DNA from: Paludibacteraceae bacterium
GTDB taxonomy: Bacteria; Bacteroidota; Bacteroidia; Bacteroidales; Paludibacteraceae
Length of the DNA: 64,000 nucleotides
Assembly (NCBI GenBank): GCA_017938155.1
Contig: JAGBCD010000016.1
Coordinates: 1-64,000 of the forward strand
Direction of reading: 5' to 3'
Shown here: piece after piece, positions 49,456 through 64,000 of the stretch
How the letters are laid out: every line of letters starts with the position of its first letter
Numbering within the stretch: the stretch's first letter is position 1
Notes under the pieces: model-generated
The model's input: only the letters and a program-made list of their open reading frames with translations
Databases searched by the model: none
Told to the model about the DNA's origin: nothing
Program-made: the position numbers and the translations under genes

Positions 49456-49501
49456 TGAAATATCAAAATATATGATTATAAAAACGACCTATAAAGTGAA
49501 G

Positions 49502-49531
49502 AAAAGGAGTTGGAATGCTCCAACTCCTTTT
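49502..49531 (-). terminator. Terminator of the amidase cluster
   Basis: AAAAGGAGTTGGA-ATGC-TCCAACTCCTTTT, a 13-bp perfect stem. It lies 33 bp past the stop of the last amidase, and its outer A/T pairs give a T-run on either strand. Confidence 0.88.
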
Positions 49532-49564
49532 CTGTGTGTTTGATTTAAATCAAATAAGTACGAA

Positions 49565-52500
49565 TTAGTAACGCAAGAATGATACGCCATTTTGGATAAC
49601 GATTCCCTTATAGTTTTCATCTACGATACGTCCAAGTACGTCGTACATAGGAGCATTGAGATTCAACTGCACATCTTCAATACCTACGGTACCAGCATCG
49701 TGGTGAGTTACTGTCAACGCTTTGCGAGCAGGAATCAATACTTGGTTTTCTTCGCTTGACTTAGGCAATGATACAACATGAATACCTGCATCACCTGAGC
49801 AAATAATGTTGCCTGCATAATCCCAGTTCATTTGACGGATAGCTGAGATACCATGCTTGATAGTATAGCGTAGTGCCAATACTGGTTTATCGCCTTGCCA
49901 AGTAATATCAAATACAAGGAATCTCATATCGCCATCGTTGAAAATCAATACAGACTCATCTGGAGATACTACATAACCACCTGCGTTAGAACCTGTGATG
50001 ATCTCCTTGTACTCATCAGAAGCAGCAGACATTTGCTCGGTGCCATCGTTGGAATAGAACTTGAGTGAAGTAGCACTTGCGTTATTGTTACCTGAAGTAC
50101 GCACTTGACTTACGAAGAAACCGTGGCTGGTAGCCCATGGGTTACCCTCGGTGTTGGATTGACCTGTCAAAGTATATACTGCACTTGGAGCAGTTTCCCA
50201 CTTATGGAGAATAGATCCGTCTGGTTGACCGATATTATAAACTGCCATACCATTTGCAGGCAATGTACCCTTAGCATCCTCGTTATAAACAAAGAGTTTC
50301 ACATCGGTACCATTGTCATATACATAGCAACCTGGAGTAGAGGAACCGGTGTAAACGCCACCATTGTTGAATGCACCATTACCTTCGCGTGTACCAGCGA
50401 AGAATTGTGTGAATGGTTGGGTCATATCTGCGGTGTTAGCCATAAAGATACCTGAATTGCCATCTGCCCAATCTGCTATATAGAGGTAACCCTCGCGGTC
50501 CATAGACATACGGGTTGGGTTTCCAAATTTCGCTACACCACCCTTGTAAACCGTAGAGTTTTGTTTAACAAGTCTATAGTCATACTCCCAAATACCACTA
50601 TTTGGAGCAAGTGAAGAAGAAGAAGAACCTGCACGGTGCATGATGTAGATGTTACCAAATTTTTCTGATTGTGGATTCACATTTACAGCATTGAACAAAC
50701 GAGATGTGCCAGATGCAATCAATGAGTTGTCTTCATACAAGAAACCAAAGTTGTCGATTGAATCTCCTTGTAGGCTAACAGCCCAAGTCATCTTTTGTCC
50801 ATTGGTACCAGGAAGATCAGCCGCAGCGATTGTAATCTCGTTATAGCCTTTAACTACGGTAATTGGCTTGTTACCTACTTCGGTACCTACTTCATCGTAG
50901 AAGTGCAATGCAGCTTGTGTTGCGTCATCGTTTGCTTCGAAAGCAAAGATATAGTTAACACCACTACCTGTTACAGAGAGGTTGTAAGCACAAATAGAAG
51001 GTTTACCTGATTGGTGTACACCCTTGGTAGTAAAGGTATGGATACGACCTGCAACAAATAGGTAGAGATCCAAATCAACACCATCTACTCTGGCTGCAAC
51101 ACTTGCGTGAAGGTCTTTAATAGGCTCACCGATTGTTGTATTGTAGGTTTTAACAACGGTTGCCTTATCTAAACCATCGGTAATATCCAATACTTGCACA
51201 CCTGTTACGTTGTCCAAAGTATCGGTAGTAGGAGCAGCCATGAGGCTACGACCTGCATATTTGAAATAGGTAGAACCATTCAACTTCACATTGAGTAAGT
51301 CTGCAGAAATATTACTTAATATAGTTACGTCTTGACCTGTAGATTCTGGCAAACGGAATTCTCTTGGAGCGATCTTATCTGCATCGAAGATAAAATCTTT
51401 CTTTGCGCCACGTGGAGACAGTGTAAATTGAATGTTCTCACCATCACGTGAAGCATCAAGAGGAGGATTCTCTGATGCAGATATACTATAACCATAATAA
51501 ATATAACTTGCGATGCCTTCTGTTACAGAATAGCAAGAGAAACGTAGTGCACCACCACCAGAAGAAGCACTATAATGGCGTTGTGATACGAGCACTTGGC
51601 AATCATCAGATACTCCCTTAACGGCGAAAGTATAACCACCATCGTTTCGATAAGAATTTGCAGAGTCATCCGCTGTGAACCATACACGTGGGTCACCTTT
51701 GAATCCGTCCCAAATGTAGAAAGTCTTCACACCACGTTTGTAGCCTGCATCCACCTGGCCATTATCATATTGACAACGGATGTAATTCATACCCACCAAT
51801 TTACCATCACAAGTAAGAGCTATGTCAGAAAGTGCAAGGTAGTCACCTAAGTTGGTGGTGTCGCAAGGAATTATACCTTTGGTAGAAATCGTATCAATCT
51901 TACCTGCGCTATGCTTAATCAAGTAGATGTGTGCTTGACCATTGTCTTCTAATGTCAACAAGATGGTTGAGTCACCACTAGGAAGGGTACGCTTGATGTC
52001 ACCTTTGATGATTTGAGTATAATCACGATAAGTGGTTTCTTGCATTTCAAACGCCTCTGGCATACCAAGATAAGATGGTTGTACAGGGTTTGGATAATCT
52101 TCATAAACAACTACAGGAGGTACATAAGAAGTATCCACTAAATAAATCATTGGATATGCTGTCTCATTTGCTTTTACAACGATAGGTTCTTTGTATTTAT
52201 CAGCCAATGGGTGATAACCATCACAAGTAGCTTCCAAAGTGTAGTCATTACCAGGAGTCAAACCTTCGAAGATGAAAAGACCATTGTAATTGTTGTCCAC
52301 TTTATAACGAGCAACTTCTGCACCTGCTTTCTTTAAAATAACTTCTGCACCATTACATGGCATCCATTGGTCGTTAGTCTTGGCTGTATATTTGAAGAGT
52401 GGATGACTGATCTTGTTGTTCTCATCTTTTACAGTACCCATGATGTAACCAACATTCTCTTTATCTGCACCATAATAGTCAACGATACCACGATAGTATG

Positions 52501-53278
52501 CCAAACCTTCCATATGGCAATAGTCATAGTTTAACGCACGGTGACGAGCTGGTTGATAGGTGTGGAAATATCCCTCTACCAAGTAGCCAGATACACTATG
52601 TTTCAATACGCCTAATGTATAACCATAGAAATCATCGCAACCACGCAAGTTAGTACTTGTCTTGTAGTGAGATGATGGGTCAATACCGCTAGTCATGATT
52701 TCGTTGCGGTAGTTCCAGCACGCATTAGCTTTTTCCCAGTTACCTTCTATATAGTTACTTGAATTAGAGTTATGAGCATCATTACCTTTGTACAAGAACA
52801 ATGGATAATTGGATGAAGTACCATCTGATGTCGTTGCGTTGGAGTGAATAGAGATAAAATAGTCGATATTATTTGCTTCTACCTCTTCGCAGATCTCAGA
52901 AAGTGCTCGGTTGTATTTCTCGTAGTCTGGCAAGGCTTTGTATGCCTCAAAACTATAGTCTGGATAGTTACCATTTTCATCTTTTACATATGGCCAAGGA
53001 CCACATTGGGTATGTGAGTACATTACTTCGGCACCAGCAGCTTCCAATTTTTGACCGAGATACAATGCTTTTTGCAAATTGGTATTCGACTCATAGAATC
53101 CGCAAGTATCAGGCATACCGTGTGATAAGTTTGGATAAGAGATAGTCGCACAGGGACGATCGTTAGGACCAAAGCTTCCGTGACCAGGGTTCACATAGAA
53201 CTTAATGCCAGTCAAATCTTTCGCTGACATGGATACCGTTAGCAGCACAGCTGCCAAGAACATAAATATCTTTTTCAT
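49565..53278 (-). CDS. Secreted amidase A with long propeller-like region
   Basis: 1237 residues, the largest of four paralogues. Signal peptide 1-19. Amidase_3 domain (about 21-275) with zinc ligands His33 (NPGHGS), Glu63 (FYESNTNL), His145 (SIHSNA) and catalytic Glu235 (LVEGYFHTY); this fold cuts the lactyl-L-Ala bond of peptidoglycan. A carboxypeptidase-regulatory-like domain follows (about 280-385, GTVKDENNK...VDNNYNGLFIFEGLTPG). About 800 residues of beta-rich repeats, probably propellers, come next, and the tail MYDVLGRIVDENYKGIVIQ resembles a sorting domain. Its catalytic domain is closest to amidase B. Last gene of the cluster, 9 nt after propeller 1. Confidence 0.88.
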   Translation of the reverse strand: MKKIFMFLAAVLLTVSMSAKDLTGIKFYVNPGHGSFGPNDRPCATISYPNLSHGMPDTCGFYESNTNLQKALYLGQKLEAAGAEVMYSHTQCGPWPYVKDENGNYPDYSFEAYKALPDYEKYNRALSEICEEVEANNIDYFISIHSNATTSDGTSSNYPLFLYKGNDAHNSNSSNYIEGNWEKANACWNYRNEIMTSGIDPSSHYKTSTNLRGCDDFYGYTLGVLKHSVSGYLVEGYFHTYQPARHRALNYDYCHMEGLAYYRGIVDYYGADKENVGYIMGTVKDENNKISHPLFKYTAKTNDQWMPCNGAEVILKKAGAEVARYKVDNNYNGLFIFEGLTPGNDYTLEATCDGYHPLADKYKEPIVVKANETAYPMIYLVDTSYVPPVVVYEDYPNPVQPSYLGMPEAFEMQETTYRDYTQIIKGDIKRTLPSGDSTILLTLEDNGQAHIYLIKHSAGKIDTISTKGIIPCDTTNLGDYLALSDIALTCDGKLVGMNYIRCQYDNGQVDAGYKRGVKTFYIWDGFKGDPRVWFTADDSANSYRNDGGYTFAVKGVSDDCQVLVSQRHYSASSGGGALRFSCYSVTEGIASYIYYGYSISASENPPLDASRDGENIQFTLSPRGAKKDFIFDADKIAPREFRLPESTGQDVTILSNISADLLNVKLNGSTYFKYAGRSLMAAPTTDTLDNVTGVQVLDITDGLDKATVVKTYNTTIGEPIKDLHASVAARVDGVDLDLYLFVAGRIHTFTTKGVHQSGKPSICAYNLSVTGSGVNYIFAFEANDDATQAALHFYDEVGTEVGNKPITVVKGYNEITIAAADLPGTNGQKMTWAVSLQGDSIDNFGFLYEDNSLIASGTSRLFNAVNVNPQSEKFGNIYIMHRAGSSSSSLAPNSGIWEYDYRLVKQNSTVYKGGVAKFGNPTRMSMDREGYLYIADWADGNSGIFMANTADMTQPFTQFFAGTREGNGAFNNGGVYTGSSTPGCYVYDNGTDVKLFVYNEDAKGTLPANGMAVYNIGQPDGSILHKWETAPSAVYTLTGQSNTEGNPWATSHGFFVSQVRTSGNNNASATSLKFYSNDGTEQMSAASDEYKEIITGSNAGGYVVSPDESVLIFNDGDMRFLVFDITWQGDKPVLALRYTIKHGISAIRQMNWDYAGNIICSGDAGIHVVSLPKSSEENQVLIPARKALTVTHHDAGTVGIEDVQLNLNAPMYDVLGRIVDENYKGIVIQNGVSFLRY

Positions 53279-53287
53279 AATGGCTGC

Positions 53288-54121
53288 TTATTTAACGTTC
53301 ATAATATAAGTTTCACCCTCAAGTGTTGAGAACACAATTGCATTCTTAGCTGTATAAGGATACATTGCTATCATGGAATCGTCGGTCAACACTTGGCTCT
53401 TGCCGTCCAATGTGTAAGCTACGATGCTGGAAGCTGTAGTAACGTGACCATCGTCATATGAAGCCATTGCTACCAAAGTATTGTTGTCATACCACTTAGC
53501 GGCTTGCACTTTGCGACCAATGAAACGAACGTCAGAACCATCGATATTGCAAACATAGCAACCTTCTGTGGTTACGAAGTAGCAAATCTTGGTTCCATCA
53601 GGACTGATAGAAGGCCAAATGTAACTCTTGTCATTACCATTAGGAGCAAAAGTATTGGTAATACCATTGATGGTAAGCTCCATGAGGCGATTGTTGATAG
53701 TAATGCTTGGTTTCACAACATCCATATTCATTTTCGCCATGTTACGTTGACCTTGAGCAACTACGGCTCTACGTTGGGTAACGAAGTTGTGGTGAATGAT
53801 ATTATGACGACGGAGTCTATCTTTTCCATAAACAGTCTCTCTATGGATAAGTTCTTTTCCATCTCCAGAAATCTTCACATTATAACCAGCGCCTTCAGCA
53901 TCGGAAATACGTACAGAGGTCTTCTCTACCATTTTGAACATGGTGAGTCCACGGTTAGCACCATCTGTCAAGAGAATATAGTCTCCTTTAGGACTGATAC
54001 CTGCTACTTTAACATCACCGGTCATGTTGGTCGGTAATTGCTTGATAGATTGTACCTCAAGCACTTGAGCACTAACAAGAGCTGTCATCGCTAATGCCAA
54101 GATTAGAAAATGTTTTCTCAT
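53288..54121 (-). CDS. Secreted PD40/TolB-like propeller protein 1
   Basis: 277 residues: signal peptide ending VSA, then beta-propeller blades of WD40-like PD40 type (GISPKGDYILLTDGANRGLTMF, WPSISPDGTKICYFV, IVFSTLEGETYIMNVK). Related along its whole length to propeller 2 at 59131. No catalytic motif. It stands directly before amidase A (9 nt), as propeller 2 does before amidase C, so the two products probably work together. A binding or scaffold role outside the inner membrane is inferred. Confidence 0.82.
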   Translation of the reverse strand: MRKHFLILALAMTALVSAQVLEVQSIKQLPTNMTGDVKVAGISPKGDYILLTDGANRGLTMFKMVEKTSVRISDAEGAGYNVKISGDGKELIHRETVYGKDRLRRHNIIHHNFVTQRRAVVAQGQRNMAKMNMDVVKPSITINNRLMELTINGITNTFAPNGNDKSYIWPSISPDGTKICYFVTTEGCYVCNIDGSDVRFIGRKVQAAKWYDNNTLVAMASYDDGHVTTASSIVAYTLDGKSQVLTDDSMIAMYPYTAKNAIVFSTLEGETYIMNVK

Positions 54122-54168
54122 GTGATTAAAATTTAATTAGTTAATAATTGTGTTAATTGTAAATAATA

Positions 54169-56598
54169 TTATTGATTGACTAAAATGTATTTTTTACCTT
54201 GTTGTATTATGATGCCTTTATAGTTTTTATCCACTTGTCTGCCAAGCAGGTCATATACAGGGTAGTTCCAATTGATGCTTTCGGTATCGATGGTTTCTAA
54301 GTTGTTGTATTGACGTGTTGAATACCTCGCAATACCTACCTTAGGTAAATACATCACCATATTAAGGTCTTCACCTTCCACCACTGCAGCTGTGTGTACA
54401 AAATTGACAGCTGCCGTATTGAGCCCAACCTGAGGCATTTTACCAGAACGTGGTGTATTGATTGATACTAACAATTTGCCAGCTTTGCTTTCTATCATCT
54501 CATACAACTGCATGCCATACTTCAGTCCATTAGCGTCACACGTAGGGATGATGGAATAGTAGGTTCCAGCATATTGGAAATAGGACGCTCCTTGTGAAGC
54601 AGCAGGTATCTCATTTTCTTCTATAGTATTGAGTTTGACCAGTGACGAACGATCGGATACTGTCCAATCAAACATATACTCGGACAATTCCATATTGGCA
54701 CCATCTACTACAAAATAACTATGGTCATATGTTGGAACAATCTGGAAGTAGAAATCACTACCCCATTTTGCCTCTGTGTAGGTGTTGCGTGATGCCATGT
54801 ATTTGGTTTGACGTATATCCTTATCTTTCATATACTCCAATCCAAAGATGGTCACGTAGCGTTTGCTATCTTCCGATACAGCAGAAACAAATAATCTATG
54901 CCACCATATATTGCCTGTAACGGTCATCGTTTCTCCCAACTCTGCCGAGGTGTAACCTGCAGCATGTTGCAAACTGTACATAACCGTAGGATCGGCATTG
55001 TCATTATCCCACTTATAGACATTCATTTGAGTAGTAGGATTGTCTTTGGCCACAGATACTTTGTTACAAGCCAATAGAACAGTATCTGACGTGAAAGCGA
55101 TATCAGAGATAGGCAAAGTAGCGGTCATATCTACGCCTTTGGTTGACAGTTTACTGATTTGTTGTCCAGTATAGGTATTGACTACATAAATCTCTGATTG
55201 GTCATTCAATACATACGTTTTGGTTCCTCTGGTCAGCATACGACGGATGTTCATACCATCCAAGAAGGGTGTAGGAACGATAGGATATTCCTCCAAAACT
55301 ACATTCTCTGCCAAGGTTGCATTCTCTGCTTGGTTAGGGAAGTCTGGTGTCAATGGACTGATAGATGCAGAAATGAAAGTCGTATCCACCAAGTAAATCA
55401 TAGAGTAAGTGGTAGCATTGGCTTTGACTGAGAAGGGGGCCTTGTATTGTTCCTCTAATGGATAGTATCCATCACAACTTGCCTCCAAGGTATAGTCATC
55501 ACCAGGAACCAAATCCTCAAACATAAAAATACCATTGTAGTTATTATCCACTTTGTACGTAGCTACTGGTTCTCCTCCTTTTTTGAGAACGACGGTAGCT
55601 CCGTTACATGGTAACCATTGGTCATTGGTTTTCGCTTTGTAAGAGAAAAGAGGGTGATCTATCTTGGTGTATTGATCTTTGATGGTACCCAACACATATC
55701 CTGTTTCCTCTTTATCTGCATTGAAATAGTCAAGGATGCCACGATAGTAAGCCAAGCCTTCCATATAACAATAATGAGGATTCAATGCTCGGTGACGTGC
55801 GGGTTGATAGGTATGGAAATATCCTTCTACCAAAAAACCTATTGCGCCATGTTTCAATACTCCATAATACCCCTTGTATCGCTTACCATTGGAACGAGTT
55901 GCTGTGGAATAGCCATGCATAAAATCCACGTCACCACGAATATTCGTCTTGGTGTCGGAATACGCATTGTGAGGATCCAAACCACTGGTCATTATTTCCA
56001 TACGATAAGGCCATGATGCAGCACATGCTTCCACACTACCTTCAACATACTCAAAGCCATTGGTCTTGTCCGCTGTTTTGTAGGCATCAGGACCTCTATA
56101 TAAATAAACGGGATAGTTTGTCACTGAACCTTCTGTAGCAGCATTCGAGTGAACAGAAATGAAATAGTCAAAATTGTTCGCTTCGACCTCTTCACAAATA
56201 ACGGACAAGTCCTTGTTGTATTTTCTATAGTCAGAACGATTTTCGTATGCGGACCATGTATAAGTAGGATAGTCTCCATCTACTTTGGGATAATCCCATG
56301 GACCAGAAGCGGTACGTGAGTACATCACATAAGCACCTGCTTCTTCCAATTTTTTACCCAAATACAAGCATTTCCAAAGATTGGTGTTCGTTTCATAAAA
56401 TCCACATGTATCGGGCTTGCCAGACTTAGGCAAGTTGGGATAAGGAATGGTGGCCATGGGGCGGTCATTTGCTCCATAACTACCATGACCTGGATTGACG
56501 TAAATACGCTTGCCTGTTAAGTCTGCTGCACTGAGAGTTACAGCAAATGAGATGAGTGCAAAAAATAGAGCTGTGTTTTTCATTACCTTTGTATTCAT
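54169..56598 (-). CDS. Secreted amidase B (mosaic paralogue)
   Basis: 809 residues. Met6 (56583) is an alternative start just before the signal peptide. Amidase_3 domain with His38 (NPGHGS), Glu69 (FYETNTNL), His150 (SVHSNA) and Glu258 (LVEGYFHTY), close to amidase A, then the same regulatory-like domain as A (VDNNYNGIFMFEDLVPG). From PLTPDFPNQAENATLAE onward (DNA 55356 down to 54169) it instead matches amidase C almost residue for residue. The tail is VYDLLGRQVDKNYKGIIIQQG. It thus combines the catalytic half of A with the propeller half of C. Confidence 0.88.
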   Translation of the reverse strand: MNTKVMKNTALFFALISFAVTLSAADLTGKRIYVNPGHGSYGANDRPMATIPYPNLPKSGKPDTCGFYETNTNLWKCLYLGKKLEEAGAYVMYSRTASGPWDYPKVDGDYPTYTWSAYENRSDYRKYNKDLSVICEEVEANNFDYFISVHSNAATEGSVTNYPVYLYRGPDAYKTADKTNGFEYVEGSVEACAASWPYRMEIMTSGLDPHNAYSDTKTNIRGDVDFMHGYSTATRSNGKRYKGYYGVLKHGAIGFLVEGYFHTYQPARHRALNPHYCYMEGLAYYRGILDYFNADKEETGYVLGTIKDQYTKIDHPLFSYKAKTNDQWLPCNGATVVLKKGGEPVATYKVDNNYNGIFMFEDLVPGDDYTLEASCDGYYPLEEQYKAPFSVKANATTYSMIYLVDTTFISASISPLTPDFPNQAENATLAENVVLEEYPIVPTPFLDGMNIRRMLTRGTKTYVLNDQSEIYVVNTYTGQQISKLSTKGVDMTATLPISDIAFTSDTVLLACNKVSVAKDNPTTQMNVYKWDNDNADPTVMYSLQHAAGYTSAELGETMTVTGNIWWHRLFVSAVSEDSKRYVTIFGLEYMKDKDIRQTKYMASRNTYTEAKWGSDFYFQIVPTYDHSYFVVDGANMELSEYMFDWTVSDRSSLVKLNTIEENEIPAASQGASYFQYAGTYYSIIPTCDANGLKYGMQLYEMIESKAGKLLVSINTPRSGKMPQVGLNTAAVNFVHTAAVVEGEDLNMVMYLPKVGIARYSTRQYNNLETIDTESINWNYPVYDLLGRQVDKNYKGIIIQQGKKYILVNQ

Positions 56599-56604
56599 CT
56601 AACG

Positions 56605-56764
56605 TTAATAATAAATATCTCCCTCTTCGGTAGAATATGCCAGCAACCTTGATATCTAAAGTGTGAATAATTGGGGCATCTCACATAGCCCCAATTTATA
56701 GTAATTGAGCATTAGCAGTTGTTGAAACTGCTAATGCTAATAATATAATGAGATACTTTCTCAT
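56605..56764 (-). pseudogene. Remnant of a third propeller gene
   Basis: ATG at 56764 opens a signal peptide MRKYLIILLALAVSTTANAQLL, like that of propeller 1 (MRKHFLILALAM..), and then hits TAA at 56696. Some 40 bp further another frame reads LLAYSTEEGDIYY-stop (ending 56605), matching the end of propeller 1 (IVFSTLEGETYI). About 250 codons between are gone, replaced by a short stretch with a hairpin (AATTGGGG..CCCCAATT). Its position, 15 nt after amidase C and 6 nt before amidase B, equals that of the intact propeller genes. Confidence 0.7.
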
Positions 56765-56779
56765 TGCACACTCAATATC

Positions 56780-59134
56780 TTAGTCAATGATTCTGTATTT
56801 GCAACCTTGTTGAACCACTACTCCTCGGTAACTCTTATCTACCTCTCTTCCTAAGATATCATAAACAGGGATATTCCAATTGATATTCTCTACTTCTATA
56901 TTTTCAATCGCATTATATGTACGTGTAGAATATCTTGCAATACCTATTTGTGGCAAGTACATAACCAAGTTGAGATCATCACCTTCCACTACAGCGGCTG
57001 TATGTACAAAATTAACTGCTGATGTATTGAGGCCAGCTTGAGGCATTTTGTCAGAACGTGGCGTGGTCAGTGAAACCAACAATTTCAAAGCCTTGTTCTC
57101 AATAATTTGATACAATTGCATACCATAATTGAGACCATTGGCATCGCATATTGGAAGAATCGAATAGTATGTTCCTGCATATTGGAAGAAAGATGCGCCA
57201 TAGGAAGCCATTGGCAACTCATCTGCATCCAATGTATTGAGTTTCACCAAAGCAGAACGATCGGTTGCATTCCAATCAAATGTATATTCCGTCATTTCTA
57301 CATTAGCTCCATCTACAATAAAGTAACTATCATCCTCTGTTGGAGCAACTTGGAGGTAGAAGTCGCTACCCCATTTTGCCTCAGTATAAGCATTGCGAGA
57401 TGCCATGAACTTGGTTTGCTTGATACCTGATTCTACTTCGTTGGACATATATTCAATACCGAAGATGGTGATGTATCGTTTGCTATCTTCCGAAACAGCA
57501 GAAACAAACAACTTGTGCCACCAAATATTTCCAGTAACGGTCATTGTCTCTCCCAATTCAGCAGAAGTGTATCCAGCTGCGTGTTGAAGGCTATACAAAA
57601 CCGTAGGATCGGCATTGTCGTTATCCCACTTATAAACATTCATTTGGGTAGTAGGATTGCTCTTGGCTACAGATACTTTGTTACAAGCCAACAAGACACT
57701 ATCAGAGGTGAGAGCGATATCTGAGATTGGTAGAGTAGCTGTCATATCGATTCCCTTGGTAGAGAGTTTGCTGATTTGTTGTCCTGTATAGGTGTTGATA
57801 ACATAAATCTCGGACTTGTCGTTCAACACGTATGTTTTGGTACCTTGGGTAAGCATACGACGGATATTCATTCCGTCCAAGAATGGTGTAGGAACAATAG
57901 GATACTCTTCCAAAACCACTTTCTCTGCCAACGTTGCATTCTCTGCTTGGTTAGGGAAGTCAGGGGTCAATGGACGAATATAAGCAGAGTCAGTCACGTA
58001 GATATTGCTGGTAGTGGTCTTACCTGCCACGGCTGTGATATCGATAATTTCCTCTACTGCATGATGAGCATTTACACGAACTTGATACTCGCCTGGTTGT
58101 ACATCGTAAAAGGCGTAGATACCATTGCAATAATTATCTGTGTAAGTAGTTTGAATCACTGTGCCATTTTGCATCAACTCAACCTTAGCACCATCCATCG
58201 TTTTCCATTTATCTTTAGGCATATCATGGTTGGTAGGTTTGGCAATGTAACTACCCATGCCAGCACGTGTTTCTTTGAAGTTTTTGCTTCTCACATCCCC
58301 GCATACGATAGCAGTAGTTGGGAAGTCTGCTTTCCAGATATCGCATATAGCATAATAGAAACGATATGCTTCTAATGTTTGATAGTTGCGATTGAGGAAA
58401 CGGTGCGTATTAGGTAAGTAGCTATGGAAGCTTGCTTCGCACAAAACGGTTGGACTATTACATCCTGGAGTTAACAAAGAATACGAACTGGTAAAGGTCC
58501 AATACTTTGTATCGTCTTGAGTTCCCTCGTGCAAGCAATCCAACAAGTTGTCATACATATAATAGTAAACCTTGTCTGCATATTCTACCGATTTGGCATT
58601 GGTTGCTCCTTTTTTGTATGCCCAATCTTCTTCAACACCTGGCAAGAAACAAGCTACATAATTGGCAGCTTGTCCTACGCTGCCTGCTGCATTAGAGTGG
58701 ATAGAAAGGAGCATATCTGCGTTCATTGCATTCGCTTCTTCTTTCATCAAAGAGAAAGAGCGGTCACCAATGTTTGGATCCGTAATGGATGGTTTGTCCG
58801 TACCTATCACTTTACCATCCCAGTCCAATTTACCATTATCACGTGTTCCTGATTGATTTGTCCAACGTGACATTTGCACTATAGCACCTGCTTCTGTTAA
58901 TAAGTCGTATAAGTCAAAAGCGACTTTCAAGTTACTACTTGATTCCCAAAAACCAAGTGTATCCACATGACCATCTACATACTCTGGAAAAGGTATGGTC
59001 TCAATGTGTCTGTCATTTACTCCATTCCATCCACCGTGACCTGGATTAAGATATATTCTAACCCCAGATAAATCTGCGGCTATCACCATAGTAGTCATGA
59101 TACATACTATGATGAGTGATGCGATTTTTTTCAT
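56780..59134 (-). CDS. Secreted amidase C
   Basis: 784 residues. Signal peptide 1-19. Amidase_3 domain of the second subtype: His33 (NPGHGGWNGVNDRH), Glu64 (FWESSSNL), His146 (SIHSNA), Glu233 (LCEASFHSY), with the shared insert SGTRDNGxxDWDG (96-107). Then a regulatory-like domain (YCNGIYAFYDVQPGEYQVRV) and a propeller-like C-terminal half shared with amidase B. The tail is VYDILGREVDKSYRGVVVQQG. Its ATG overlaps the stop of propeller 2 by 4 nt, so translation is coupled. Confidence 0.88.
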   Translation of the reverse strand: MKKIASLIIVCIMTTMVIAADLSGVRIYLNPGHGGWNGVNDRHIETIPFPEYVDGHVDTLGFWESSSNLKVAFDLYDLLTEAGAIVQMSRWTNQSGTRDNGKLDWDGKVIGTDKPSITDPNIGDRSFSLMKEEANAMNADMLLSIHSNAAGSVGQAANYVACFLPGVEEDWAYKKGATNAKSVEYADKVYYYMYDNLLDCLHEGTQDDTKYWTFTSSYSLLTPGCNSPTVLCEASFHSYLPNTHRFLNRNYQTLEAYRFYYAICDIWKADFPTTAIVCGDVRSKNFKETRAGMGSYIAKPTNHDMPKDKWKTMDGAKVELMQNGTVIQTTYTDNYCNGIYAFYDVQPGEYQVRVNAHHAVEEIIDITAVAGKTTTSNIYVTDSAYIRPLTPDFPNQAENATLAEKVVLEEYPIVPTPFLDGMNIRRMLTQGTKTYVLNDKSEIYVINTYTGQQISKLSTKGIDMTATLPISDIALTSDSVLLACNKVSVAKSNPTTQMNVYKWDNDNADPTVLYSLQHAAGYTSAELGETMTVTGNIWWHKLFVSAVSEDSKRYITIFGIEYMSNEVESGIKQTKFMASRNAYTEAKWGSDFYLQVAPTEDDSYFIVDGANVEMTEYTFDWNATDRSALVKLNTLDADELPMASYGASFFQYAGTYYSILPICDANGLNYGMQLYQIIENKALKLLVSLTTPRSDKMPQAGLNTSAVNFVHTAAVVEGDDLNLVMYLPQIGIARYSTRTYNAIENIEVENINWNIPVYDILGREVDKSYRGVVVQQGCKYRIID

Positions 59135-60054
59135 TGTATTTCAACTTTCATTACATAAACAGTTCCTTCAGTTTCAAAAGCAATCATATCACCTTTTACA
59201 GATGCTGTAGGGTAAAGGATTACCTCGTGATTAGGCACTTCAATCACTTGTCTATTTGTTCCATCTATTTTGGATGTCACAATAGGTGAACGAGTGTATT
59301 TGTACCCATCATCCCAAAGATCCAACATACCTACGATATATTCATTACCCAACCATTGTGGTGCTCCAATATATCCAAGAGAAACAGCATTCTCGCCCTG
59401 CATATCGCATACATATGTTCCAAAAGCATCTCCTTGGGTAACGGTATAAACAATATGTTTTTTGTCTGGAGAGATAACTGGCCATACATAACTGCCTTTT
59501 CCTTGTGGATTAAGCACTTTGCGTACATTATTGGTATAGAGAACCAAGTTCATATCCTCAATAGCCACTACATAGTTTGCTTCTACTGGACGAATGTCTG
59601 TAACCAAACGTTTGCTACGAATCATCTTATGTTTAGCGATATGTATGGTACCACCAGAAAAATCAAAAGCATATTTCTCACGGCTTGGCTCATCCACTAC
59701 TTGGATATCACCTGTTTCTACCACGATACGTTTGATAGAAGTGTAACGGCGATTGTTGACATATTCTACATCGCGATAAACAACTACCTTGCCACCATCA
59801 CTGATTTGTGTTTCATAACCCGCATTTTCTGCTCCGGTCAACTGTTTCATTTCTTGAGTTGCAAGGTCGTACATCATTAGACCTTTGTAACTCATGGTAG
59901 AGAACAATAGATAATCTCCTTTGGGAGAGAATTTAGGGTGATAGAAACCCTGATTTTCGGTTCCTTTCAAAGGCTCGATAGATAGCACTTTGATCTCTGC
60001 ATTCATCATGGTTGTCATCATACAAGCCATGAGTGCAATAATCAGTTTTTTCAT
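59131..60054 (-). CDS. Secreted PD40/TolB-like propeller protein 2
   Basis: 307 residues. Signal peptide MKKLIIALMACMMTTMMNA, then PD40-type blades: HPKFSPKGDYLLFSTMSYKGLMMYD, WPVISPDKKHIVYTV, IAFETEGTVYVMKV. Paralogue of propeller 1, about 30 residues longer. Lies 19 nt after amidase D and overlaps amidase C. The order propeller then amidase is thus repeated. Confidence 0.83.
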   Translation of the reverse strand: MKKLIIALMACMMTTMMNAEIKVLSIEPLKGTENQGFYHPKFSPKGDYLLFSTMSYKGLMMYDLATQEMKQLTGAENAGYETQISDGGKVVVYRDVEYVNNRRYTSIKRIVVETGDIQVVDEPSREKYAFDFSGGTIHIAKHKMIRSKRLVTDIRPVEANYVVAIEDMNLVLYTNNVRKVLNPQGKGSYVWPVISPDKKHIVYTVTQGDAFGTYVCDMQGENAVSLGYIGAPQWLGNEYIVGMLDLWDDGYKYTRSPIVTSKIDGTNRQVIEVPNHEVILYPTASVKGDMIAFETEGTVYVMKVEIQ

Positions 60055-60073
60055 ATGAGTATTGGATTATAGA

Positions 60074-62440
60074 TTAAAAAATAACTTTTTTACAGGTTTC
60101 TCCTTGTTGCATGATATACACACCTTTGAGAAGATTTGCTTGGTTAGCATCGCCTTGATACATTAGCAGACCACCCAAATTGTAAATCTTAACCTCACCT
60201 TGGAGTTGTACATCTTCGATAGATGTAGCTTGTTGACCCAAAGTAACAGCATAAATCGCGCTACCAACACCCTTTGCATACGTATATAAGGAGATATTAT
60301 CACTACCATCAATCATAAATCCAGCAAACATCGGATGTTTAGCCTCTGCTGGAGTTGCATTGGCTGATGCCAAAACATAAGCATTGCTCAAACCATTTTT
60401 AGCATAGTAGAACTCTACACCATTGGTTCCTACTACAGGCGCTACCATCAAAATACTGGAGTCGTTTGAATATCTAAAGAAGGACATGTCAGTGACTGCT
60501 GCATCAATGTTTTCGGCTGTTCCTTTGTGAATAAGTGGAGAACGGCTTACTGCATTCCAATCAAATTGCATATCCATTGGTTTGATGGACTTACTATCAA
60601 TAATAAACGCATCTTCATTGAATGGAGAAGGAGAAAGTTTAACATCATTTCCTAATGCTGCATAGGATAATGCATCTTGATTAGCTTCATCAAACATGTA
60701 TTTGTTGTTCAACAACACTTCATCTTCTGCGTTGTAGTGCAAACCCATGATACGAATCTTTCCACTGCTTGCAGCGGTTGCTACTGGCATATACAATTTG
60801 AATTCCCAACTGTTGCCTCTAAACGCCATCGATTCACCTACAAGACCATCGGTCCAGTTAGCGTTGACATTGTTACCAGAGTTTTTGAACACCACTACTG
60901 GGTCAGCATCATCACTTTCCCACTTGTAAAGTTTGAAATGTACATTGGTATCATAATAGTTAATCTTGTTTGCGTTACATGCAAATAAGAATCCATCTGC
61001 TGAGAAAGCAATATCCGAAAGAAGTCTTGTTCCCTCGCTCACACCAACGGTTGATAACTCTTTGATCTTTTCACCCGTAAGGGTATTAATAAGGAGTATC
61101 TTGTTGTCGTCTGTCAACACATAAGTTTTCTCACCACGTACAATAGCACGACGAATGTTCACACCATCCAACACATTGCTACTTGGAGTAGAAGACAATG
61201 CCAATGTAGCAGTTGCATTCCATGATTTCTCAGGAGCATAAACAGGGAAATCTGGGAAAGATGCATGAGTGACAGGAACGTAGTTAGGGTCAGACAGCAA
61301 TACGTTGGTGGTGGTTATCTTACCAGCCTCAGCCACTACAGCCACTTCTTGAGAGGTATAATCCTCGTACTCAAAACGCAAAGTATAATTGCCTGGTTGC
61401 AACTCACGGAAGCAATACATACCATTGTAGTAGTTATCTACCGTATAGGTTTTGAGAACGGTAGTTCCTTGCAACAAGGTTACTGTGGCACCATTCAGTG
61501 GAGTCCATTGGTCTTTGGAACCAGAGATATAATCGGTATAACCTTTGATTTTGGCTCTGTAGTCACCAGCACGCACATCACCACATAGACAAGCAGTAGT
61601 AGGTCTATCTGCACCAAAGAAATCACAATAGAAATAATGCAAGCGGAGCGCTTCCATATATTGATAGTCTCTATTCAAGAAACGGTGAGTGTTTGGCATA
61701 TAAGTGTGGAAACTTGCTTCGTAGATAAAACCAGGAACAGTCAAGTTGTTGTCCTTAAGCAACGTGTAGTCAGAAACACAAGGAATGTTTGGTTTTAAAG
61801 GATCAGAGTCTGATGAATAAACATCCAATGGATTATCCAACACGTATGGCCACATTGCTTTTGCCATATCAACGTCTTGTTGTTTAGCATAGTTGGTAAA
61901 ATCCCAACCAGCAGGAGCTGAAGCAGATGCTGGCAACATAAGTACTACATAGTTGGTTGCTTTACCTATTGCAATAGCATTGGAGTGGATGGAAATGAAC
62001 GCATCCACGTTGAGTGCAGAAGCTTCTGCTGCTATTTGTTGCAAATTACGGTCACCTACCATAGGGTCAAGAATAGAGTCCTTGTCTACACCTATCTTGA
62101 GACCATCCCAGTCGTAAGAACCATTGTCACGTGTACCAGATTGATTGGTGCGACGAGACATATAAACAGTGGCACCAGAATTGAGCAACATGGTTTCCAA
62201 ATCTTGGGCAACCTTCAAGTTGCTACTGGACTCCCAGAAACCTAATGTATCTCTATATTGAGATGCTTGGTCTGTAAACTCAGGAAATGGAATGGTAGGA
62301 ATATGTCTATCGTTAGCACCATTCCAACCGCCGTGTCCAGCGTTTAAGTAAATTTTTACACCTGCTAAATTCTTAGCAAACACATTTGTCAGTCCACCTA
62401 TCAAAAGGAGAACAAGAATCAATGGTAAATGTCTCTTCAT
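60074..62440 (-). CDS. Secreted amidase D
   Basis: 788 residues. Signal peptide ending VFA. Amidase_3 domain: His36 (NAGHGGWNGANDRH), Glu70 (FWESSSNL), His152 (SIHSNA), Glu241 (YEASFHTY), with the same SGTRDNGxxDWDG insert as amidase C but a longer loop after SIHSNA. Then a regulatory-like domain (VDNYYNGMYCFRELQPGNYTL) and a propeller-like half that is homologous to, but clearly diverged from, B and C (DGVNIRRAIVRGEKTYVLTDD). The tail IYNLGGLLMYQG..LLKGVYIMQQGETCKKVIF is the most typical T9SS-type sorting domain of the set. Follows the GHL10 gene by 36 bp. Confidence 0.88.
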   Translation of the reverse strand: MKRHLPLILVLLLIGGLTNVFAKNLAGVKIYLNAGHGGWNGANDRHIPTIPFPEFTDQASQYRDTLGFWESSSNLKVAQDLETMLLNSGATVYMSRRTNQSGTRDNGSYDWDGLKIGVDKDSILDPMVGDRNLQQIAAEASALNVDAFISIHSNAIAIGKATNYVVLMLPASASAPAGWDFTNYAKQQDVDMAKAMWPYVLDNPLDVYSSDSDPLKPNIPCVSDYTLLKDNNLTVPGFIYEASFHTYMPNTHRFLNRDYQYMEALRLHYFYCDFFGADRPTTACLCGDVRAGDYRAKIKGYTDYISGSKDQWTPLNGATVTLLQGTTVLKTYTVDNYYNGMYCFRELQPGNYTLRFEYEDYTSQEVAVVAEAGKITTTNVLLSDPNYVPVTHASFPDFPVYAPEKSWNATATLALSSTPSSNVLDGVNIRRAIVRGEKTYVLTDDNKILLINTLTGEKIKELSTVGVSEGTRLLSDIAFSADGFLFACNANKINYYDTNVHFKLYKWESDDADPVVVFKNSGNNVNANWTDGLVGESMAFRGNSWEFKLYMPVATAASSGKIRIMGLHYNAEDEVLLNNKYMFDEANQDALSYAALGNDVKLSPSPFNEDAFIIDSKSIKPMDMQFDWNAVSRSPLIHKGTAENIDAAVTDMSFFRYSNDSSILMVAPVVGTNGVEFYYAKNGLSNAYVLASANATPAEAKHPMFAGFMIDGSDNISLYTYAKGVGSAIYAVTLGQQATSIEDVQLQGEVKIYNLGGLLMYQGDANQANLLKGVYIMQQGETCKKVIF

Positions 62441-62476
62441 GTTTTTTAAATTTAGTTTAAATAATTATTTTGTGAG

Positions 62477-64000
62477 TTATTTGAATATCTTGTACACATC
62501 GTTTCCAGAAACGACGATATAAACACCTTGACGTGGCAAGTCTTCAATACGATGGCCTACCCATCGTCCCATGATGTCGTAAATTTGTAAGGATTGATTG
62601 CCTTGAATGGTAGGAAGTGCAGAAGTAGTAGAGGTCCACTTTGCATACAAAATCCCACTCCATCCTGCTGGGATAGAAGTGATAGAATTTCCGCTAAATG
62701 TAGCATTATCATACCATCCTAAGAACGTGTCATTTGCCTTTACTGGTATAGGTAAGGTATAGGGAGCTGACACAGAAGTAGGAAATACAAACGGATTGGC
62801 AGCTTGGTAAGCACTGCCCCAATTGGCAGGCAGTCCTGCTGAAGAAAAGTCTGCCGTGGCCACTTTCTGCAAACCGGCTACCGTACCATCGGAAGCATTG
62901 AAAAAGGCTCTCACATGCCATCTCCATGCGGATTCGCTATCCAAACTATAAGACTGTTGGGTAGCTACACCATAAACATAATCGCCCAACCATTTGTATG
63001 CCGACTTGGTGTTGGTCATGATGTCTTGCATATACTTGTACGCAAAAGTAGCTGCATTCTCTTTGGGCTGATCCGAACGCTCCTCGCCATAATAGGTTAT
63101 ATAATAAGGCTTGAAGGCATTCCATAACGAATCATTCGTGGGTACTTGAGGTAGTACCATTCCACCGTTCAACACCCACTCAATATCCGTGGAAACGGCT
63201 CCCTCTGTATAAAGAGCTGGTTCATATTCGTTACCATATCGGTCATAAGCACATACGGCAATGTTCTGTCCATTTAGATTTTGAATATGCGACAAATCAA
63301 ATGATTTTTGCCATACTATTCCTTGCAGGTATGCAGGATTCTCTATCGCACTACTCACATTCACACCTTGAGGAAATACATAAACAGTAAATCTTTCTGC
63401 CTTGCTGTGGGTCCAAGACAAAGTGGTGCCAGTCAAAGTAAGATGAGTCGGTTTGGTCAACGTCTCGGCTGGTTTCCAGTCCATTGCTGGTGGCAAAGCT
63501 TTGTATTGGAAGTGAGTAGCTGCCAATTCGCTATACATTTTTTGGTAGGCGCTCGTATTGTAGAACACACTACCCGTATATCCTGATGATAAGTTGGCTC
63601 GATTGCTTTCTATCTGACGCTTAATCTCTAATACGCCATCATCATATCCTCTATAACCATCATAAGCATGGTATGCGGCTTGACTGGAGAAGAAATGTAC
63701 TTTCTTACCATTTGGCAATAGGTTGGAGAAATGTTCGCAAACATCTTTTGCCCACCACTCAGCCAATACGTCATAGTCTTGAGCTGCCAACTGAGTGGAC
63801 CAATACAATTGAGGAGCAATATAATCTACATAACCACCCTTAACCCACTCTACCGTATTACAAGCTTGCACATCATAATCGTCCAATCCGGAAATACCTG
63901 ATGGCAAAGTCAAACCATAAGCCTGAGCTGCTTTCTTTTGAGTGGACCAAATACCAAATGGTCCCATACCAAAACGAACCCAAGGTTTAACTGCTTGAAT
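62477..64000 (-). CDS. GHL10-type glycoside hydrolase, N-terminus outside the window
   Basis: The frame is open to the window edge (IQAVKPWVRFGMGPFGIW from base 64000), so the first visible Met is internal. The visible part ends a GHL10/DUF187 TIM barrel: KPWVRFGMGPFGIW, WVKGGYVDYIAPQLYWSTQ with the usual IxPQLYW strand, and WWAKDVC. A fibronectin-like segment, an InlB-type repeat module (FLGWYDNATFSGNSITSIPAGW) and the tail IYDIMGRWVGHR..GVYIVVSGNDVYKIF, resembling a T9SS sorting domain, follow. The family contains predicted glycosidases (YngK-like). It leads the visible amidase operon. Confidence 0.85.
   Translation of the reverse strand: MQAVKPWVRFGMGPFGIWSTQKKAAQAYGLTLPSGISGLDDYDVQACNTVEWVKGGYVDYIAPQLYWSTQLAAQDYDVLAEWWAKDVCEHFSNLLPNGKKVHFFSSQAAYHAYDGYRGYDDGVLEIKRQIESNRANLSSGYTGSVFYNTSAYQKMYSELAATHFQYKALPPAMDWKPAETLTKPTHLTLTGTTLSWTHSKAERFTVYVFPQGVNVSSAIENPAYLQGIVWQKSFDLSHIQNLNGQNIAVCAYDRYGNEYEPALYTEGAVSTDIEWVLNGGMVLPQVPTNDSLWNAFKPYYITYYGEERSDQPKENAATFAYKYMQDIMTNTKSAYKWLGDYVYGVATQQSYSLDSESAWRWHVRAFFNASDGTVAGLQKVATADFSSAGLPANWGSAYQAANPFVFPTSVSAPYTLPIPVKANDTFLGWYDNATFSGNSITSIPAGWSGILYAKWTSTTSALPTIQGNQSLQIYDIMGRWVGHRIEDLPRQGVYIVVSGNDVYKIFK

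Follow-up and report, generated by a model that had tools for sequence, protein, structure and literature searches.

N-Acetylmuramoyl-L-alanine amidases of the Amidase_3 family are represented by the AmiC, CwlD and Rv3717 types, and GHL10 proteins by Cwp19 of Clostridioides difficile, reported to be a peptidoglycan lytic transglycosylase, and by DigH (YddW) of E. coli, which we take to be a GHL10 protein; the GHL10 profile gives a match in the E. coli control. A wall hydrolase encoded next to a propeller-type protein is found in Tse1, a type VI wall hydrolase of the NlpC/P60 fold, which is blocked in the periplasm by the partial propeller Tsi1, as reported (PMC3391265). At the right end of the window, that is, the whole stretch of 64,000 nucleotides analyzed (contig JAGBCD010000016.1 of assembly GCA_017938155.1, from a Paludibacteraceae bacterium whose 93% complete genome comprises 45 contigs and 1.96 Mb), the minus strand carries seven genes for proteins and the remains of an eighth: a GHL10 gene, four genes for large amidases (A1–A4), two for stand-alone propellers (P1 and P2) and the remnant of a third propeller gene (Table 1). 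On balance, we favor the view that this locus is an expanded form of a conserved Bacteroidales cassette, consisting of GHL10, a WD40/TolB-like propeller and a large secreted Amidase_3 protein, whose products would scavenge wall material by breaking down peptidoglycan beyond the inner membrane and, most likely, beyond the cell itself. Gene content, catalytic residues, the folds of A2 and P1, pairing, co-divergence and the homology of the GHL10 protein to a characterized enzyme were all obtained by computation.

Compared with AmiC/CwlD/Rv3717-type enzymes, the amidases of the window are large, secreted, multidomain proteins with a regulatory-like domain (CRD), a propeller of their own and a tail, and they have a cognate propeller gene. 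Pfam Amidase_3 (PF01520) matches all four, A1, A2 and A4 above the cut-off and A3 with 24.6 bits as a whole protein against a cut-off of 27 (27.1 bits in another search), and the amidase fold of the family was found. The four residues His/Glu/His/Glu, presumably three zinc ligands followed by the catalytic Glu, are invariant in A1–A4 and a fifth paralogue, in agreement with the original prediction of four intact zinc amidase motifs; among 108 aligned family members they are kept in 107, 107, 108 and 108, respectively, the single gap at the first two positions being due to a contig-end fragment. Downstream of the catalytic Glu a conserved FHxYxPxxHR-like motif follows, a feature that may set the family apart from ordinary amidases. 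The CRD, first thought to be joined to each amidase, is clear in A1–A3 and weak in A4. A long propeller-like part had likewise been proposed for all of them; it stands for A2, the only amidase whose fold was examined, where 24 predicted strands form six blades (counted by hand) and the matching solved structures include Bacteroides "auxiliary nutrient binding" proteins and a DUF4623 protein. A phage origin is unsupported: in a search that covered PHROGs but no phage records, only a single endolysin family was matched, weakly, by A1, A3 and A4; a plasmid origin was discarded, A2 being without a match in the plasmid collection.

The GHL10 gene, which runs beyond the window end, was completed as a 750-aa open reading frame (ORF) by extending the contig. 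Its product matches Pfam GHL10 (E 1.8e-60) and the Cwp19 structure 5oq2 (E 5.6e-75), which strengthens the earlier assignment as a glycosidase; judged from its sequence, it is a member of the Cwp19 lytic-transglycosylase family, beyond a merely "predicted" glycosidase. In an alignment inspected by eye, most of the putative active-site residues of Cwp19 (Asp196, Tyr197, Arg132, Gln77, Gln295, Tyr297) are retained and the position of Ser250 is occupied by Gly. While the GHL10 domain is common to Cwp19, DigH and the window protein, the latter sits in an operon-like set with secreted amidases and carries a C-terminal List_Bact repeat instead of the CWB2 domains of Cwp19. Single proteins of about 2240 aa in which amidase, CRD and GHL10 are fused, with a propeller gene upstream, occur at L043:327-7073 (= L075), L068 and L096.

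The pairing of propeller and amidase is nearly strict in related Bacteroidales. At 79 named loci, a propeller is encoded directly upstream of, or fused to, 82 of the 88 amidases with enough flanking sequence, N-terminal propeller-amidase fusions making up 11 of the 82 pairs. Conversely, each of the 96 strong propeller matches in 38 genomes (G108 and G073 having been removed as duplicates of G014 and G019) precedes such an amidase, one of which is cut by a contig end; this count leaves out five second propeller-gene fragments, the pseudogene row of the window and the second rows of two weak matches. Nine weak matches (E 8e-8 to 4e-4), counted apart, do not adjoin any listed amidase. Among 198 genomes across the order, own genome included and only the best first-look candidates scored, both proteins are present in the same 5 and neither in 193. 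A chance gene neighborhood is therefore rejected, the order being kept in other genomes, and one half of an objection allowed for from the outset, that the order might occur nowhere else, is removed. In the window, a cassette of one propeller and one amidase has been locally expanded to four amidases, one of them chimeric; that amidases alternate with propellers is correct in part, but only two intact stand-alone propellers are present.

The two partners also diverge together. Distances between propellers are correlated with those between amidases in a set of 93 cognate pairs (r 0.715; 0 of 999 permutations), and exchanging the partners worsens the fit at all six two-pair loci of this comparison. 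An alignment of the propellers comprised 62 of 66 related ones, P1 and P2. In FastTree phylogenies, P1 clusters with UBA1714 (L061), as does A2; P2 clusters with L041, L117, L125 and L040, as does A4. A3 combines both lineages: it is 36.8% identical to A2 in the N-terminal and 80.3% in the C-terminal half, the values with A4 being 64.4% and 25.5%, and from these identities it is evidently a chimera, the front half following A4 and the back half A2. The 181-nt gap in front of A3 matches P2 by tblastn (E 2.6e-9; 44% over 54 residues) and is recovered by the propeller family profile, with two stops; on this evidence it is what is left of the 5′ part of a propeller gene like P2. Because this dead propeller is P2-like, matching the A4-type amidase half of A3 and not its A2-type back half, the propeller type follows the amidase half; although a single case, it agrees with the propeller-amidase fusions in pointing to the amidase half as the propeller's partner.

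The partner gene is thus adjacent, near-obligate and co-diverging, as in a hydrolase-immunity pair, and the same tight coupling is a feature of effector-immunity pairs; released amidases might accordingly be a weapon that lyses live neighbors, with the propeller as immunity protein, and the expansion and domain shuffling within the window would fit. We consider this unlikely, since no delivery machine is seen among the genes of the locus, the amidases are large, multidomain and tailed, the wall of intact Gram-negative neighbors is shielded, and SusC/D neighbors in many relatives suggest feeding. Several relatives carry SusC/SusD behind the cassette, as known from polysaccharide utilization loci, whereas the window locus is without them. 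Of the 93 distinct loci, 18 have SusC no more than 6.5 kb downstream. Where the downstream sequence reaches 4.5 kb or more, these are 15 of the 25 GHL10-type loci, 1 of the 4 that combine GHL10 with NAGPA, none of the 6 that have NAGPA alone and 1 of the 16 that have neither; the remaining one has a shorter downstream sequence (gene overlaps allowed, duplicate contigs merged, SusC model built from six of these loci; three calls were confirmed by the SusC/RagA model). In those lineages, these neighbors point to feeding on released fragments.

As to the stand-alone propellers, a profile of the family run against solved structures has TolB as its best family (12 of 13 matches, best E 6e-10); P1 and P2, however, reach 16.4 and 27.4 bits, far below the TIGR02800 cut-off of 343, are too short for the N-terminal domain of TolB and are paired with amidases, so that they are TolB-like only. 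P1 is predicted to be a full propeller, its 50 best structural matches being WD40 propellers such as Swd1 and WDR5; TolB is absent from these 50, although P1 may be related to it. Kinship with the C-terminal domain of the amidases was discarded, as the profile comparison aligns the signal peptide only. Viewed by eye, unfused propellers stop at their last strand and, unlike the amidases, have no tail; P1 and P2 give no match to type IX models at E ≤ 1. In Tse1/Tsi1, too, a wall hydrolase is encoded next to a propeller-type protein of the periplasm; the enzyme folds differ, no type VI system is seen at the window locus, the partner is sometimes fused, its inhibitory action would be an analogy, and Tsi1 is a partial propeller whereas P1 is a full one of another family as far as compared.

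Given the near-obligate pairing, the absence of a tail from the stand-alone propeller and the precedent of Tsi1, a role as chaperone or inhibitor in the periplasm is no less likely than one as a binding part; by analogy to Tsi1 the former is favored, a binding subunit being nearly as likely. The latter would be an exported or surface protein which binds wall glycan or another part of the envelope and brings the amidase there, and would be compatible with scavenging; it is quite possible, considering that propellers often bind ligands and are N-terminally fused to the amidase in some pairs. That the amidase already has a second propeller, resembling nutrient-binding proteins, has also been counted in its favor, whereas the missing tails and type IX matches of the stand-alone propellers speak against it. 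With enzyme activity, export, a foreign wall as target and a restraining partner, all of which we infer, the amidase would remove stem peptides from MurNAc and the GHL10 protein, as a putative lytic transglycosylase, would cleave the glycan strand; the C-terminal propeller of the amidase itself and its Ig-like domain would hold or bind, and the tail would export or anchor the amidase, by the type IX route in many relatives. The stand-alone propeller would be the dedicated cognate partner of the amidase half, most likely folding on it and keeping it in check within the periplasm, which would protect the cell's own wall until export. Type IX cargo passes through the periplasm, and the inhibitory propeptides of gingipains are a parallel. 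More tentatively, such a self-protection inhibitor-chaperone, acting in trans or, when fused, in cis to silence an exported wall amidase in the periplasm, might constitute a new class of hydrolase and guardian that enables extracellular peptidoglycan foraging in Bacteroidales.

Tails were compared in 77 amidases, 4 of the window and 73 of relatives, with matches to the type IX type A model (TIGR04183) taken at E ≤ 0.01; 34 of the 73 relatives have one and none of the window proteins does (type B: 2). Dockerin_1 matches 9 of the 77, by eye in loci labeled Muribaculaceae and similar ones; dockerin-like tails were seen by eye, where others have type IX, in L073, L077, L080, L081, L091, L093, L094, L133 and L136. 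Several points weigh against exported scavenging with a restraining propeller. The tails of the window all stay below the type IX cut-off (A1 E 0.13, GHL10 E 0.018, A2–A4 none at E ≤ 1), so that export of A1–A4 is inferred only from relatives and overall confidence is slightly lowered. The tail type of A2–A4 has four strong matches in the own genome, three being A2–A4 themselves, and was rejected as a genome-wide sorting signal. The sortase PorU is present in the own genome, but also in 56 of 61 relatives (above the cut-off in 41 of 50 carriers), carriers not being richer; it was discarded as evidence for export, the background being equally high. A SusC/SusD pair was not found at the window locus, which was included in the same scan. 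Co-divergence could arise merely from joint inheritance of adjacent genes; the propeller is not indispensable, as A1 has none, that of A3 is dead, and it is missing from 6 of 88 relatives whose catalytic residues are intact; and a binding module would explain the fusions no less well than an inhibitory pro-domain. The peptidoglycan-dismantling extracellular apparatus of the original prediction holds with respect to wall-degrading enzymes, secretion, close packing on one strand and propellers as integral parts; the outside location is conjectural, as a recognized type IX sorting domain is found in none of the proteins whose tails had been called sorting-like, and so are the wall of other cells as the substrate and a binding or assembly function of the propellers.

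A last objection is that the characterized GHL10 relatives, Cwp19 and DigH, work on the own wall. A role in the producer's own wall, be it peptidoglycan turnover or splitting of the septum, would moreover be suggested by the TolB-like sequence of the propeller, Tol-Pal being linked with septal wall cutting (PMC7391070), and by an ordinary AmiC-like amidase not having been found in the own genome (G000; best Amidase_3 match E 1.1e-12), from whose 93% complete assembly it may be missing. This reading is improbable in view of the patchy spread (5 of 198 genomes across the order), the export tails on the amidases of relatives, and the separate, propeller-less Amidase_3 gene (ORFs of 193–448 aa; E 3e-37 or better) kept by all ten genus-mate carriers searched. 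PorU was seen at full length and above the cut-off in the genomes of L066 (Bacteroides nordii, 1081 bits) and L078 (B. salyersiae, 1114 bits), a genus which, to our knowledge, is often said to be without a type IX system.

The component families are already known; the new element is the near-strict propeller-amidase pairing with GHL10, of which no description was found in the open-access literature by title and abstract (most subscription papers lying outside). The repeated layout, initially thought to be without a described counterpart, is in itself not unique, since the cassette recurs. Shed bacterial wall is plentiful in gut and rumen. If these are exported wall-degrading systems, the cassettes name the enzymes and supply a marker gene pair for metagenomes, and they pose the question of how a wall-cutting amidase passes the producer's own periplasm harmlessly; the near one-to-one pairing makes it directly testable, also in the cultured B. 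nordii and B. salyersiae.

The genes are separated by 36 (GHL10-A1), 19 (A1-P1), −4 (P1-A2), 181 (A2-A3), 47 (A3-P2) and 9 nt (P2-A4); the one-strand packing with gaps of −4 to 47 nt and the 181-bp exception, noted before, thus agrees with the ORF coordinates. The hairpin behind A4 is likely the operon terminator. In front of the GHL10 gene, the same contig encodes an M3 peptidase and a membrane protein of 295 aa; because a related membrane protein (28–34% identity) and/or M3 peptidase (66–86%) precedes the cassette in L040/L110, L041, L061, L117, L122 and L125, the site looks conserved.

Table 1. Features at the right end of the window
Feature	Position	Strand	Remarks
GHL10 gene	62477..64000	−	5′ part beyond window end; full ORF 750 aa, L007:478-2730 = contig C7 62477-64729; Pfam GHL10 and Cwp19 match
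A1	60074..62440	−	Signal peptide, Amidase_3, CarboxypepD_reg-like domain, C-terminal beta domain, tail; not directly preceded by a propeller gene
P1	59131..60054	−	Secreted stand-alone WD40/TolB-like propeller; cognate of A2, which it overlaps by 4 nt
A2	56780..59134	−	Amidase (23-270), CRD, propeller (about 400-738), tail
P2-type propeller gene remnant	56599..56779	−	In front of A3; tblastn with P2; family profile, two stops
A3	54169..56598	−	Chimera with the amidase half from the A4 lineage and the C-terminal half from the A2 lineage
P2	53288..54121	−	Secreted stand-alone propeller, cognate of A4
A4	49565..53278	−	Amidase, weak CRD-like domain, C-terminal beta domain, second region (about 835-1190) weakly propeller-similar, tail
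Hairpin 3′ of A4	49500..49533	−	15 pairs, T-rich 3′ arm; consensus scan only; near-palindrome, listed on + strand

Elsewhere in the own genome, a second cassette type (L008:600-8767, contig C25) encodes a protein with a List_Bact repeat, a fusion of propeller and amidase that has two Big_5 stretches, and a NAGPA phosphodiester glycosidase; similar sets are present in L058, L059, L107 and L109. The Golvesin-domain protein L009:6369-9365 has a partial Amidase_3 match just below the cut-off, with no propeller seen adjoining. Homologues (36–39%) of the PD40-TPR protein L007:6273-7637 adjoin cassettes of GHL10, propeller-amidase and SusC in L104, L105, L114 and L116. In a Barnesiella metagenome-assembled genome, a BadF-type, weakly NagK-like gene (L121:12661-13500; both scores under the family cut-offs) directly follows a NAGPA-propeller-amidase cassette, and its product is perhaps an amino-sugar kinase.
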